A stretch of DNA of 33,320 nt from assembly GCA_903902075.1 (NCBI GenBank), contig CAIUTH010000187.1, positions 1 through 33,320 on the forward strand. Reading direction: 5' to 3'. Source of the stretch: an uncultured Alphaproteobacteria bacterium. Lineage in GTDB: Bacteria > Pseudomonadota > Alphaproteobacteria > Micropepsales > Micropepsaceae. The position numbers and the translations under genes are program-made. The first letter of the stretch is position 1. Every line of letters starts with the position of its first letter. Of the stretch, positions 7,607-25,382 are shown one piece after another. Below the pieces are notes generated by a model. It did not search any database and was not told where the DNA came from. It saw nothing but the letters and a program-made list of their open reading frames with translations.

Positions 7607-7654
7607 ATGATGAATTTTCTTGTAGTAATCCGGCCGCTGGCCCGCCGAAGCTGA
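7607..7654 (+). CDS. ilv operon leader (attenuation) peptide
   Basis: A 15-codon reading frame that reads MMNFLVVIRPLARRS and ends with TGA at 7652-7654. It carries Leu-Val-Val-Ile in a row (7619-7630) and one more Leu. These are exactly the end products of the ilvBNC pathway. Ribosome stalling here when charged tRNAs are scarce would control the attenuator hairpin downstream. ilvB begins 99 bases after the stop. Two ATGs in tandem (7607, 7610) could serve as the start, and neither has a Shine-Dalgarno, consistent with translation from the very 5' end of the RNA. The functional call rests on codon content, position and the hairpin; the peptide is too short for homology. Confidence 0.82.
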   Translation: MMNFLVVIRPLARRS

Positions 7655-7753: not shown

Positions 7754-9541
7754 ATGGACAAGGACGATACGCTGACAGCCACCCAGGCCGCCGAAACCAT
7801 GACCGGCGCGCAGATGGTCATTCGTGCGCTCAAGGATCAGGGCGTCACCCATATCTTCGGCTATCCCGGCGGCGCGGTGCTGCCGATCTATGACGCCCTC
7901 TTCAAGGTCGAAGGCATCGAGCATGTCCTGGTGCGCCACGAACAGGGCGCCGTCCATGCCGCCGAAGGCTATGCCCGCTCCACCGGCAAGCCGGGCGTTG
8001 TGCTGGTCACTTCCGGTCCCGGCGCCACCAACGCCGTCACTGGCCTGACCGACGCGCTAATGGATTCCATTCCCCTGATCGTGCTGACTGGCCAGGTGCC
8101 CACGCATCTGATCGGCACCGACGCGTTTCAGGAATGCGATACGGTCGGCATCACCCGGCCCTGCACCAAGCACAACTGGCTGGTGAAGGACGTCAACGAG
8201 CTGAGCCGAGTGCTGCACGAGGCGTTCGAGATCGCGACCACCGGCCGTCCCGGCCCGGTGGTGGTGGACATCCCCAAGGATGTCCAGTTCCAGAACGGCG
8301 CCTATCACGGGCCGCAGGCCATCCATCACCGCACCTACAAGCCCAAGACCGATCCCGACCTGTCGGCCATCGTGAAGGCGGTGGAGATGATGGCGGCGGC
8401 GAAGAAGCCCATCTTCTATACCGGCGGCGGCCTGATCAATTCCGGCCCCGAAGCGTCCAAGCTGCTGCGCGAACTGGTGGACCTGACCGGCTTTCCCGTC
8501 ACCTCGACCCTGATGGGCCTGGGCGCCTTTCCGGCGGCCCGTCCCGAATGGCTGGGCATGCTGGGCATGCACGGCACCTGGGAAGCCAATCACGCCATGC
8601 ATGACTGCGACCTGTTGATCTGCCTGGGCGCGCGGTTCGACGACCGCGTCACCGGCAAGGTCAGCGCCTTCTCGCCCGGATCGAAGAAGATCCATCTGGA
8701 TATCGACGCCTCGCAGATCAACAAGATCGTGCGCGTGGACGTGCCGATCGTCGCGGACGCGGCCAAGGCGCTGCGCGAGATGATCCGTTTCTGGAAGACC
8801 CAGAAGCACGCGGTCCAGGCCGATGCGCTGAAGGGCTGGTGGAAGCAGATCGACCAGTGGCGGACCAAGAAGTCGCTGGACTATCGGAACTCCGACAGCA
8901 TCATCAAGCCGCAATTTGCGATTGATCGCCTGTACGAACTGACCAAGCATCGCCAGGACGTCTTCATCACCACCGAAGTCGGTCAGCACCAGATGTGGGC
9001 GGCGCAGCGCTTCCATTTCCAGGAACCCAATCGCTGGATGACCAGCGGCGGGCTGGGCACCATGGGCTATGGCCTGCCGGCTGCGGTGGGCGTGCAGATG
9101 GCCCATCCGGGCGCGCTGGTGATCGACATCGCCGGCGAAGCCTCGGTCCAGATGACCATGCAGGAAATGTCCACGGCGGTTCAGTACAATCTGCCGATCA
9201 AGATCTTCATCCTGAACAACGAATATATGGGCATGGTCCGCCAATGGCAGGAAATCCTGCATGGCGGGCGCTATTCGCACTCCTATTCCGAGGCGCTACC
9301 CGATTTCGTGAAGATGGCCGAAGCCTTTGGCTGCGTCGGCCTGCGCGCGGAAAAGCCGTCCGAACTGGATGGCAAGATCCAGGAGATGCTGGCGGTGGAC
9401 AAGCCGGTGCTGTTCGACGTGCGTGTCGACCCGGCCGAGAATTGCTATCCCATGATCCCCAGCGGCGCGGCGCATAACGAGATGCTGCTGTCGCCCGACG
9501 ACGGCGGCCAGATCAGCGACGCCGGAAAGATGCTGGTCTGA
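7754..9541 (+). CDS. ilvB: Acetolactate synthase (AHAS), large catalytic subunit
   Basis: ThDP-dependent condensation of pyruvate with pyruvate or 2-ketobutyrate, the first common step to Val/Leu and Ile. The 595 residues show the three usual ThDP-enzyme domains: N-terminal pyrimidine-binding (GYPGGAVLPIYDAL; catalytic Glu63 in RHEQGA), central FAD-type (LGARFDDRVTGKV), and C-terminal pyrophosphate-binding (TSGGLGTMGYGLPAAVG, then the metal motif ending ILNNEYMGMVRQW). The metal motif reads AGEAS here, with Glu462 where many family members have Asp. The ATG at 7754 has a GAGACGGGA upstream. The gene overlaps none and is 1 bp from ilvN. Regulation is by the upstream leader peptide and hairpin. 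The ilvI and ilvB names are interchangeable for this branch. Confidence 0.97.
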   Translation: MDKDDTLTATQAAETMTGAQMVIRALKDQGVTHIFGYPGGAVLPIYDALFKVEGIEHVLVRHEQGAVHAAEGYARSTGKPGVVLVTSGPGATNAVTGLTDALMDSIPLIVLTGQVPTHLIGTDAFQECDTVGITRPCTKHNWLVKDVNELSRVLHEAFEIATTGRPGPVVVDIPKDVQFQNGAYHGPQAIHHRTYKPKTDPDLSAIVKAVEMMAAAKKPIFYTGGGLINSGPEASKLLRELVDLTGFPVTSTLMGLGAFPAARPEWLGMLGMHGTWEANHAMHDCDLLICLGARFDDRVTGKVSAFSPGSKKIHLDIDASQINKIVRVDVPIVADAAKALREMIRFWKTQKHAVQADALKGWWKQIDQWRTKKSLDYRNSDSIIKPQFAIDRLYELTKHRQDVFITTEVGQHQMWAAQRFHFQEPNRWMTSGGLGTMGYGLPAAVGVQMAHPGALVIDIAGEASVQMTMQEMSTAVQYNLPIKIFILNNEYMGMVRQWQEILHGGRYSHSYSEALPDFVKMAEAFGCVGLRAEKPSELDGKIQEMLAVDKPVLFDVRVDPAENCYPMIPSGAAHNEMLLSPDDGGQISDAGKMLV

Positions 9542-17163: not shown

Positions 17164-17552
17164 GTCCGGCGGGCCTCGAGGGCGGGTGTTGGGACGGTTT
17201 CCTGCCGCCCCGATAAGCGCGTTCGGCGGATGAGGCAACCTCTTTGACGCGCTTGCACAATAGGGCGTGGGCCCGGTGTCGGGGTGACGGTTCCATGAAG
17301 CCGAAAGGCGGACCCGGCAGCGAGCCGGGGCCAAAATGTTGTTTACACTGGCAATTTACCGACAGGCCGCCCACAGGTCATTTCGCTCCTGCACCTGTGG
17401 CTATTGCGCCACCGGTCGAATTCAGCGTAAAACCGCCCCAGCGCATGGGAAAAAACAGAGGATTATCCGCTGCTTAGCCCCAAGCGTGCGCATCGTAAAA
17501 ATTTCACGGGCGGAACGGCGACAGGTCAATGACGCAAGGCGTGACGAGCAGA
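17164..17552. other. Intergenic region between divergent permease and leu leader
   Basis: About 390 bp without a convincing gene. It contains a small stem (CCCGGC 17313-17318 with GCCGGG 17324-17329) near the permease, an AT-rich patch around 17334-17360, the inverted repeat at 17371-17400, and further AT-rich DNA near 17440-17505. The promoters of both divergent units must lie here. I do not see a -35/-10 pair strong enough to call. Confidence 0.6.
17371..17400. promoter_or_regulatory. Inverted repeat CCACAGGT-N14-ACCTGTGG, candidate operator
   Basis: Two perfect 8-bp arms (17371-17378 and 17393-17400) with 14 bp between them, about 208 bp before the permease ATG and 150 bp before the leu leader. 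The centre-to-centre distance of 22 bp, two helical turns, suits a dimeric DNA-binding regulator better than an RNA hairpin with a 14-base loop. The regulator is unknown. Confidence 0.45.
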
Positions 17553-17657
17553 ATGGCGAAGGGTGGAATTTCCGCCCGTGCCTCTGTACGCGCCAACACG
17601 CAGCCCCGTCCTTCCCTCGGTTCTTCGCACACGCTTCTTCTTCTTAGCTGCCCCTAG
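17553..17657 (+). CDS. leuA leader (attenuation) peptide with four consecutive Leu codons
   Basis: A 34-codon frame beginning MAKGGISARA and ending SSHTLLLLSCP, stop TAG at 17655-17657. Four CTT Leu codons in a row (17634-17645) lie 9 bases before the stop, plus one CTC Leu at 17616. It is followed at once by a strong GC hairpin and then leuA 100 bp downstream. This is the arrangement of a classic leucine-operon attenuator: ribosome stalling at the Leu run under leucine shortage. The exact start is uncertain. ATG 17553 has no good Shine-Dalgarno, and an in-frame GTG at 17541 is possible. The downstream Leu run and stop are the secure parts. It is one gene of a pair with the ilv leader. Confidence 0.8.
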   Translation: MAKGGISARASVRANTQPRPSLGSSHTLLLLSCP

Positions 17658-17700
17658 GCGCTCATCGCGCGCGAATGGTCGCGCGCATGGTGTTTAGGGG
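17651..17700 (+). terminator. leu attenuator hairpin before leuA
   Basis: The core stem GCGCGCGA (17667-17674) pairs with TCGCGCGC (17679-17686) around ATGG. An outer stem pairs CCCCTA (17651-17656) with TAGGGG (17695-17700). The outer stem overlaps the leader stop codon, so a ribosome that reaches the stop would disturb it while one stalled on the Leu codons would not cover the core. There is no clear U-run after the core (ATGGTGTTTA), so the mode could be transcriptional or translational; I favour attenuation by position. Confidence 0.6.
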
Positions 17701-17757
17701 ATCAACGCAACAGGAGAATCGAAGCCGCGTATGCGGCGAACAGAAGGACTACTTGTC

Positions 17758-19320
17758 ATGGCCACCAACACTACCGAAACGACCCCGATTCAGATCTTCG
17801 ACACCACCCTGCGTGATGGCGAGCAGTCGCCTGGCGCCGCGATGAGTCACGAAGAAAAAATGCAGATCGCCGAACTGCTGGATGAAATGGGCGTCGACAT
17901 CATCGAAGCCGGCTTTCCGATTTCTTCCCAGGGAGATTTTCGCGCTGTTCAGGAAATCTCCAAGCTGGTCAAGCGCGCCTCGGTGTGCGGTCTCTCCCGC
18001 GCCGGTTTCAAGGATATCGACCGTGCCGGCGAAGCCCTGAAGGGTGCATTTCGGCCCCGGATTCACACGTTTATTTCCACCAGCCCCGTGCACATGAAGC
18101 ACAAGCTGAACATGGGCGAGAATGCGGTTCTGGAAGCGATCGGCGCGTCGGTGACGCGCGCCCGCAACTTCACCGACGATGTGGAATGGTCGGGCGAAGA
18201 CGCCACCCGCACGGTGCCCGATTTCCTGTGCCGCTGTGTCGATGTCGCCATCAATGCCGGCGCCACGGTGATAAACGTGCCCGACACGGTGGGCTATTCC
18301 ACGCCGCAGGAATATTTCGACATCATCAAGATGTTGCGCGAACGCGTGCCGAACGCCGACAAGGTGATCTTCTCCACCCATGTCCATAACGATCTGGGCC
18401 TGGCGGTGGCGAACTCCCTGGCCGGCGTACTGGCGGGTGCGCGCCAGGTGGAATGCACCATCAATGGCATCGGCGAGCGCGCCGGCAATGCCGCGCTGGA
18501 AGAAATCGTGATGGCGCTGAAAGTGCGCAAGGACATCATGCCCTTCACCACCGGCATCAACACCACCATGCTTAACCGCGCTTCCAAGCTGGTCAGCAAC
18601 GTCACGGGCTTTCCGGTCCAGTACAACAAGGCGATCGTGGGCAAGAACGCCTTCAGCCATGAGTCCGGCATCCACCAGGACGGCATGCTGAAGAATGTCG
18701 AAACCTACGAAATCATGCGGCCCGAGGATGTGGGGGTGAACGCCACCTCCCTGATGCTGGGCAAGCTGTCCGGGCGCCATGCCTTCAAGGACAAGCTGGA
18801 AAGCATGGGTTATGTGCTGGAGACCGAAGCCTTCGAAGACGCCTTCAAGCGCTTCAAGGACCTGGCCGACAAGAAAAAGCACGTGTTCGACGAGGATATC
18901 GCAGCCCTGGTTGACGACGAGATCATGCGCGGCCAGGACACGATCTCGATCAAGGCGCTGCGGGTGGAATCGGGCACCGGCATCATCCCGGTGGCTTCGC
19001 TGACCCTGGATGCGGCCGGTGTGGTCAAGAGCGTGACGGTGAGCGGCGATGGCCCGGTGGACGCCATTTTCATGGCCATCCGCGAGGCCTATCCCCACAC
19101 CGCGACGCTCCAGCTGTTCCAGATCAGCGCCGTGACTGAAGGCACCGATGCCCAGGCGCAAGTCAGCGTCCGGCTGGAAGAAAATGGCCGCACCGTCACC
19201 GGCAAGGCGTCGGACACCGACACCATGGTGGCGGCGGCCTATGCCTATGTGAATGCGTTGAACAAGCTGCTGGTGAAGCGCGAGAAGCAGGCGCCCGAAG
19301 CCCTGTCGGTCGCGCGATGA
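17758..19320 (+). CDS. leuA: 2-Isopropylmalate synthase
   Basis: Condenses acetyl-CoA with 2-ketoisovalerate (made by the ilvBNC products) to 2-isopropylmalate, committing carbon to leucine. The 520 residues show the HMGL-like TIM barrel with DTTLRDGEQSPG (catalytic and metal Asp) and the HVHNDLGLAVANSL metal-binding His pair. The C-terminal LeuA allosteric domain, which confers leucine feedback inhibition, starts near residue 390. This is the long LeuA1 form, complete. I use the ATG at 17758 with AAGGA 10 bases before it; an in-frame ATG at 17731 would add nine residues that families do not need. Expression should depend on the upstream Leu-rich leader and hairpin. Confidence 0.96.
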   Translation: MATNTTETTPIQIFDTTLRDGEQSPGAAMSHEEKMQIAELLDEMGVDIIEAGFPISSQGDFRAVQEISKLVKRASVCGLSRAGFKDIDRAGEALKGAFRPRIHTFISTSPVHMKHKLNMGENAVLEAIGASVTRARNFTDDVEWSGEDATRTVPDFLCRCVDVAINAGATVINVPDTVGYSTPQEYFDIIKMLRERVPNADKVIFSTHVHNDLGLAVANSLAGVLAGARQVECTINGIGERAGNAALEEIVMALKVRKDIMPFTTGINTTMLNRASKLVSNVTGFPVQYNKAIVGKNAFSHESGIHQDGMLKNVETYEIMRPEDVGVNATSLMLGKLSGRHAFKDKLESMGYVLETEAFEDAFKRFKDLADKKKHVFDEDIAALVDDEIMRGQDTISIKALRVESGTGIIPVASLTLDAAGVVKSVTVSGDGPVDAIFMAIREAYPHTATLQLFQISAVTEGTDAQAQVSVRLEENGRTVTGKASDTDTMVAAAYAYVNALNKLLVKREKQAPEALSVAR

Positions 19321-25306: not shown

Positions 25307-25382
25307 GGGTGATTAGCTCAGTTGGTAGAGCAGCTGACTCTTAATCAGCTTGTCGTAGGTTCGATCCCTACATCACCCACCA
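25307..25382 (+). tRNA. tRNA-Lys (anticodon CUU)
   Basis: A full cloverleaf: acceptor GGGTGAT with ATCACCC, D arm GCTC-AGTTGGTA-GAGC, anticodon arm GCTGA-CTCTTAA-TCAGC with anticodon CTT at the middle of the loop, T arm GTAGG-TTCGATC-CCTAC, discriminator A and an encoded CCA. It reads AAG lysine codons. The 3' end lies 13 bp from the convergent membrane-protein gene. No integrase or att duplication is seen, so this tRNA is not occupied by an island here. Confidence 0.97.

Follow-up and report, generated by a model that had tools for sequence, protein, structure and literature searches.

A leucine leader peptide with its stop codon in a covarying hairpin stem precedes leuA in much of the Alphaproteobacteria and most likely belongs to a translational attenuator

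In a stretch of 33,320 nucleotides from an uncultured alphaproteobacterium of the Micropepsaceae (contig CAIUTH010000187.1, hereafter the window) we have analysed the region upstream of leuA and found a leucine leader which extends over much of the class and which, judging from covariation and folding statistics, is most likely a translational attenuator. Comparison with relatives or RNA folding brings out a translated ORF, a covarying hairpin that contains the stop codon, a pairing between the leader and the leuA ribosome-binding site (RBS), and a fixed place before leuA. The features referred to throughout are the following, SD standing for Shine-Dalgarno.

17507-17528, forward strand: conserved block immediately 5' of the leader start (cgggcggaacggcgacaggtca), which contains an SD-like AGG (17523-17525); a similar block is found in relatives.
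17529-17657, forward strand: leader ORF of 42 codons (MTQGVTSRMAKGGISARASVRANTQPRPSLGSSHTLLLLSCP, then stop), from frame reading and frame-preserving length changes in relatives.
17553, forward strand: ATG, internal alternative start of the leader ORF, with an open frame of 34 codons.
17608-17623, forward strand: anti-SD segment A, inside the leader ORF, GTCCTTC (17608-17614) plus GTTC (17620-17623), from the minimum-energy fold, covariation and the cognate test.
17634-17645, forward strand: four consecutive CTT Leu codons, from the sequence and from Leu at matching positions in relatives.
17651-17661, forward strand: 5' arm of the hairpin (CCCCTAGGCGC), including the stop TAG at 17655-17657, from fold and covariation.
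17667-17686, forward strand: apical part of the hairpin (GCGCGCGA/TCGCGCGC), variable among relatives, from fold and alignment.
17690-17700, forward strand: 3' arm of the hairpin (GTGTTTAGGGG), without a U-run after it, from fold and covariation.
17711-17724, forward strand: purine-rich segment (CAGGAGAATCGAAG), pairing with the Leu-codon region in the minimum-energy fold.
17738-17749, forward strand: leuA ribosome-binding region, GAAC (17738-17741) plus the SD GAAGGAC (17743-17749), partner of A, from fold and alignment.
17758-19320, forward strand: leuA, 2-isopropylmalate synthase, 520 aa from ATG 17758, with NCBIfam TIGR00973 and NF002087 above cut-offs.

The leader frame ends with CTT CTT CTT CTT AGC TGC CCC TAG (17634-17657), encoding a C-terminal LLLLSCP before the stop. 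A preliminary description, made from the letters of the window, had located the four CTT codons and the in-frame TAG correctly but had placed the stop directly after the run, whereas three codons (AGC TGC CCC) lie between them. The 34-codon frame that it proposed is indeed open from ATG 17553, but ATG 17529, which gives 42 codons, is the likelier start: it is preceded by ACAGG, and a simple start-picking rule places the start 123-132 nt before the stop in 57 of 66 relatives from the same order. A block similar to 17507-17528 precedes the leader ATG in the order relatives listed (23 of 66), and this block (GGGCGGAACGGCGA) may be part of the transcript start, the leader RBS or an operator. Segments 17505-17515 and 17570-17580, the one at the block before the leader start and the other in the leader ORF, form a perfect 11-bp inverted repeat. 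As a candidate helix hiding the leader's own start it was rejected, the cognate pairing being no better than non-cognate ones in 66 relatives (p 0.90).

Length variation among the relatives bears directly on translation. The landmark CGTCCTTC, or a near variant of it, is found close to the stop in 47 of 70 order relatives, and its distance to the stop is a multiple of three in all 47 testable cases, over five lengths (42, 45, 48, 51 and 54, in 2, 3, 12, 26 and 4 cases); the spacer between hairpin and leuA, which served as the untranslated control in the same 47 sequences, is distributed 16/15/16 across the three frame classes. Because all landmark-to-stop length changes are multiples of three, the comparison indicates that the leader ORF is translated. 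Thus, what the sequences point to is a translated leader ORF with codons for the amino acid of the pathway, as is the mark of a ribosome-mediated attenuator, and the leucine leader peptide already put forward in the preliminary description is, on this comparative evidence, real.

The relatives were gathered with two filters, which condition the reading of some counts. In the order, sequences were required to carry CTN at codon -4 relative to a stop and three or more Leu among the final 12 codons, with no requirement for a hairpin, and 70 of 73 distinct stretches passed; those that failed were L013, which is cut by the contig end, L076, whose genome has a match to the covariance model R1 (see below), and L090. 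Of 133 stretches from elsewhere in the class, 87 scored at least 5, 78 passed a hairpin-like filter as well and 75 were left after duplicate removal; because this filter was applied, hairpin percentages for the rest of the class are partly by construction. Leu occupies codon -6 in 139 of 144 relatives and codon -5 in 98 of 144, counts that are raised by the filter, as the selection itself asked for Leu at -4 and for three Leu among the final twelve codons. It is also the rule in relatives that the last Leu codon lies three codons before the stop, a spacing that was used in picking them and hence has no evidence value. Codon -4 is CTT in 134 of 144 relatives (its first letters were selected), and at positions -5 to -7 CTT accounts for 153 of 319 Leu codons and CTG for 52, while in eight genes of the window CTG makes up 231 of 292 Leu codons and CTT only 14 of 292. 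Rare Leu codons are suited to the sensing of starvation.

The hairpin comprises an outer stem (17651-17661/17690-17700) of 11 bp including G-U pairs, and an apical core (17667-17674/17679-17686) of 8 perfect pairs, which confirms the core at 17667-17686, the outer stem spanning 17651-17700 and the stop codon within it, all as originally noted. Its conservation was evaluated across the class in alignment A2, which holds 84 of 90 references (L202, L205, L216, L219 and L223 were omitted for long loops and L224 for a short loop, and stretches extending more than 62 nt past the stop were dropped beforehand). In this alignment 92.2% of cells of the 11-bp stem are paired, compared to 28-54% when one arm is slid by 1-3 columns and 84.8% when the 3' letters are shuffled; 8 of the 11 pairs have changed on both sides and one is invariant. 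The middle base of the stop codon is itself in a pair, GC in 50 sequences, AU in 28, GU in 5 and other in 1, and UGA and UAG/UAA stops are mostly paired with the matching 3' arm. Variants with CCTC often come with GAGG (7 of 11 among the matches listed), and the single CCCTTAA variant carries TTAAGGG. Within the order, where sequences were not selected for a hairpin, all seven stop-stem pairs are present in 65 of 70 and six in the other 5. These comparisons indicate that the stop codon is a covarying stem base across the class. The Leu run and the hairpin, on whose conservation in related alphaproteobacteria the preliminary description had made its claim depend, are both conserved, and the claim was not refuted.

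The order relative L090 (G062) has a similar hairpin with CAG at the position of the stop codon, the next in-frame stop, a TGA, being two codons on as judged by eye, and its genome has no R1 match. In L113 (G045) an 18-codon leader (MQKHSTHQALLALRLTIA, then stop) has TTTTT right after the stop-in-stem hairpin, and this lineage possibly uses intrinsic termination.

The minimum-energy fold of 17600-17775 is a single long rod of -70.9 kcal/mol in which GTCCTTC pairs with GAAGGAC, GTTC with GAAC and the Leu-codon region with 17711-17724, with the hairpin at its tip. Relative to shuffled sequences its z is -3.7, and -3.9 for 17500-17790, with none of 200 shuffles folding as well in either case. In alignment A1 (61 of the 70 order sequences, near-identical rows being removed) 74.3% of the cells of the whole rod are paired, whereas sliding gives 42-50% and shuffling 70.7%. 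For the SD helix the figure is 79.4%, with 6 of its 7 pairs changed on both sides, in an alignment that misaligns this helix for genera with the anti-SD elsewhere; the helix between the purine segment and the Leu codons, with 66.5-74.5% of cells paired and few changes on both sides, has the weaker support.

We have compared the pairing of each leader with its own leuA RBS and with those of others in 87 related sequences, namely the 75 from the rest of the class and 12 from the order. For the leader interval -40 to -5 the energy is -16.2 kcal/mol with the own RBS and -13.1 kcal/mol with others' (p 4e-10), the p-values here and elsewhere being calculated on related sequences, so that the events are not independent. 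The median z is -0.9 and 16 of 87 cognate pairings are in the best 5% of non-cognate ones: the signal is clear when summed and modest per sequence. The advantage is also observed for -50 to -15 and -60 to -25 (p 2e-4 each), is hardly present for -70 to -35 (p 0.06) and -90 to -55 (p 0.09), and is absent for -110 to -75 and -130 to -95 (p 0.5; 86-87 sequences).

Controls in which leader codons are replaced by synonymous ones, or the leader flank is shuffled, go in the same direction. In the order, 50 of 70 leaders have z below -1 and one above +1 when codons are drawn from the pooled leaders (p 7e-13), and 33 of 70 and four, respectively, when the usage of the window is applied (p 6e-8); the leader of the window itself has z -0.9 in the genome-usage version of this control, and L022, L031, L089, L093, L096 and L105 are at or above zero. 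Upon shuffling of the leader flank, the median ensemble-fold z is -2.7 in the order (46 of 69 below -2) and -1.2 in the rest of the class (17 of 66 below -2), with no sequence above +2 in either set. Pairing with the leader takes up a 0.48 share of the RBS in native sequences and 0.38 in shuffled ones, in both sets, the native share being the higher in 56 of 69 (order) and 51 of 66 (rest of class). These shuffles are the unpicked counterpart of six example folds which were picked, five of them for strong scores, among scores of which at least 29 of 86 had z below -1.5 and at least 4 of 86 above +1.5. One of the six is Paracoccus denitrificans, in which the Leu codons themselves pair with the leuA SD and the z of the whole fold is only -1.8. 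A leader structure that sequesters the RBS downstream, the arrangement known from ermC, is thus observed in silico and comparatively. The preliminary description had suggested a translational output, which these data support; it had missed the partner, a segment of the leader ORF that pairs with the leuA SD and supplies a concrete mechanism.

We consider it quite probable that a leucine-responsive translational attenuator lies before leuA, and we infer its leucine response, the direction of the switch and the site of stalling as follows. By default the leader RNA would adopt the long imperfect rod, with segment A on the leuA SD, the Leu-codon region on the purine stretch 3' of the hairpin and the stop-in-stem hairpin as cap, and leuA translation would be off. 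The conservation of the hairpin is stricter than a mere cap should need, which counts against this explanation. With sufficient leucyl-tRNA the ribosome would reach the stop near the tip of the rod and depart, and the rod would re-close; with leucyl-tRNA in short supply it would stall at the Leu codons of the leader. A ribosome stalled on CTC 17616-17618 would cover A and free the leuA start; alternatively, A would be covered by a ribosome queued behind one stalled on the CTT run. Because this CTC, at codon -13, is the first Leu codon of the window's leader and lies inside A, and because Leu makes up only 53 of the 1724 residues upstream of codon -16 in 66 leaders of the order, the first stall in leucine shortage would fall on the anti-SD, and stalls on the CTT run would act via the rest of the rod or through queueing.

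This scheme of stall sites, drawn from static folding, was evaluated by masking the ribosome footprint in the fold and determining the cost of opening the RBS. In the order (n=69) the mean cost is 10.1 kcal/mol for the free leader, 8.3 with a ribosome at the stop and 6.9-7.8 with one on the Leu run, and it is 5.4, 5.0 and 5.3 kcal/mol when the ribosome is placed 10, 14 and 18 codons ahead of the stop. For the other members of the class (n=67) the corresponding values are 8.1 kcal/mol free, 6.3 at the stop and about 5.5 at positions between the Leu run and codon -10, with higher costs further upstream. For the leader of the window, placing a ribosome on the CTT run achieves only a partial opening of the RBS (7.1-9.9 versus 10.1 kcal/mol), and the cost is 6.1 kcal/mol with the ribosome 14 codons before the stop; for this reason the model has to rely on the CTC codon within A or on queueing of ribosomes. 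In the order overall, opening is best with A covered, also at codon -18, where Leu is not required. The masking computation thus favours an opening of the leader structure by a stalled ribosome, only in part as regards the CTT run.

The absence of a U-run bears on the other possible outputs. In the window none follows position 17700 (the next bases are ATCAACGC), and TTTT occurs within 10 nt past the 3' arm in only 5 of 144 relatives, in line with the earlier expectation of an output other than intrinsic termination. This is compatible with a Rho-linked attenuation, in which the RNA is folded, leuA is left untranslated and Rho ends the transcript in the leader or in early leuA, the output being the level of mRNA. 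Untranslated mRNA is open to Rho, and such termination would also be compatible with the translational attenuator as its consequence: we find it unlikely as the explanation of the element, and possible as a secondary effect. Classical transcription attenuation, in which the hairpin would be an intrinsic terminator relieved when a ribosome stalled at the Leu codons covers the 5' arm, is in our opinion distinctly improbable. A ribosome stalled at the last Leu codons could cover the nearby 5' arm, the stem of L113 is directly followed by TTTTT, and the ilvB leader of the same window has such a form; however, apart from the missing U-run, the two terminator-like hits of our scan count T's which belong to the 3' arm of the larger stem, and the pairing between leader and RBS would be left unexplained. 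An intrinsic terminator, that is a GC hairpin directly followed by a U-run, was therefore rejected. Very improbable is a reading in which the conserved RNA is the binding site of a regulatory protein and the leader peptide is secondary, as the consulted portion of PMC1262725 argues for the LEU element: the hairpin base is conserved in sequence too (an A right after the 3' arm in 109 of 144 relatives), but frame preservation and the choice of rare codons argue that translation matters, and pairing is kept where the letters change (CCTC/GAGG, CCCTTAA/TTAAGGG).

The distribution of the element was analysed with the covariance model R1 (61 positions, threshold E up to 0.01), for whose construction leuA leaders from many of the genomes later scanned were used. 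It yields one match in each of 64 of 192 genomes of the class, from 49 families; with this single match per genome, the element was not seen before other genes in these 64. A leuA match is listed for 62 of them, in all 62 on the same contig and strand and starting 41-428 nt after the motif (for G047 a weaker leuA match was used in this placement). Of the R1 matches on leuA upstream stretches (see below), the more independent part are the 17 at loci outside the filtered class set, namely L114, L129, L144, L147, L148, L152, L172, L173, L176, L182, L186, L198, L199, L207, L215, L220 and L227. In L114 (G057), whose motif is at 629-682 on the minus strand, the leuA match begins 428 nt after the motif, and in between there seems to be an ORF of cupin-like appearance by eye. 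On the gene strand of leuA upstream stretches from outside the order, R1 matches 92 of 130 (67/83 plus 25/47). Within the order it matches 78 of 96 genomes: of the 75 in which leuA was matched at E 1e-150, 73 carry it, and of the 21 others, 5. One genome of the order, G107, is alone in having two matches (C68:870-935 and C185:4594-4661), of which the second may reflect a duplicate contig, a mixed assembly or a second copy.

In a draw from the phylum, 59 of 249 genomes match R1; 58 belong to the class, and the one from outside it has E 0.007, the number of non-class genomes among the 249 not being given. One of 34 hits of a pattern search, L054 (titled beta proteobacterium), was rejected as due to chance: it is without leuA and its frame is without a Leu run (AIHLSGP). 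The leuA start motif is present in the other 33 hits. Carriers include Methylobacterium bullatum (E 1e-11), Rhizomicrobium electricum (6e-9), of a genus placed in Micropepsales by NCBI, and Phaeobacter inhibens (7e-7). The genus of the window includes Rhizomicrobium electricum, as the leuA upstream stretch L085 of a same-genus genome is identical to L062, which comes from the named record. Weak matches come from Paracoccus versutus (0.0099) and from Paracoccus denitrificans (0.021, beyond the limit of 0.01), the Paracoccus element being a more diverged form. At curated scores Rfam 15 has no match to the leader, the only match in the window being a tRNA at 25307-25379, and permissive Rfam scans of the leader and eight related loci gave, at the leaders, only matches below curated scores.

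In proteobacteria, attenuation by amino acids is mostly presented in teaching as a matter of transcription termination. In the enteric leu operon a leader peptide with a run of Leu codons has a U-tract terminator as its output; the leader described here likewise has a Leu run in a leucine-pathway leader peptide, but no U-tract terminator. The window also contains an ilvB leader peptide (MMNFLVVIRPLARRS, then stop; 7607-7654), followed up to 7714 by a GC hairpin and a T-rich tail (GGGGCGGAAACGCCCC, TTTATCTTT), with ilvB, the acetolactate synthase large subunit gene, at 7754-9541. The ilvB leader is a classical attenuator in form, and the leuA leader is of another kind.

The nearest system in logic is the LEU element upstream of leuA in Actinobacteria, for which the sections of PMC1262725 drawn on here describe pairing of the leuA SD with the run of Leu codons and propose a pseudoknot. 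Both have a Leu-run leader peptide before leuA and leader RNA on the leuA SD, and no terminator is described in those sections (PMC1262725). Unlike the LEU element, the SD partner in the window (17608-17614) is upstream of the CTT run and not the Leu run itself, a feature of the LEU element which Paracoccus denitrificans does have; also unlike it, the leader has a stop-in-stem hairpin, which the same part of PMC1262725 does not describe for LEU. Changes in the Streptomyces leuA leader resulted in a behaviour unlike classical attenuation (PMC1262725, same sections), which by analogy may be taken as a warning for an attenuation reading here. The scheme also resembles the translational attenuation of ermC, as described in the part of PMC10219788 consulted, in that a stall in the leader ORF would expose a hidden SD, whereas the signal would be uncharged leucyl-tRNA at Leu codons and not an antibiotic. 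In Sinorhizobium meliloti a translated sORF lies upstream of leuC, not leuA (PMC10117765, in the portion consulted). We recognised no description of an alphaproteobacterial leuA leader in the open literature, where an earlier prediction is possible (Vitreschak 2004, Lopatovskaya 2010), nor does one appear in the consulted portions of PMC7298713, PMC4833913, PMC6429828, PMC5082802 and PMC10272879.

On balance we lean towards regarding this element as an RNA switch absent from Rfam 15, in which Leu starvation would be read by a leader ORF that masks the leuA RBS, with rare CTT codons at a fixed distance from the stop and the stop codon in a covarying stem, such that leucine synthesis in much of the class would be set mainly at translation initiation and not at transcription termination. 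It is unusual for the three letters of a stop codon to serve at the same time in a covarying stem, and this gives a sharp handle for testing. A model of 61 positions is enough to find the element, which is present in tractable species (Phaeobacter inhibens, Methylobacterium bullatum, Rhizomicrobium electricum, Paracoccus). If this is true, a large part of the class uses RBS masking for leuA, in parallel to the LEU element; this would point to more than one origin of translational leucine leaders.
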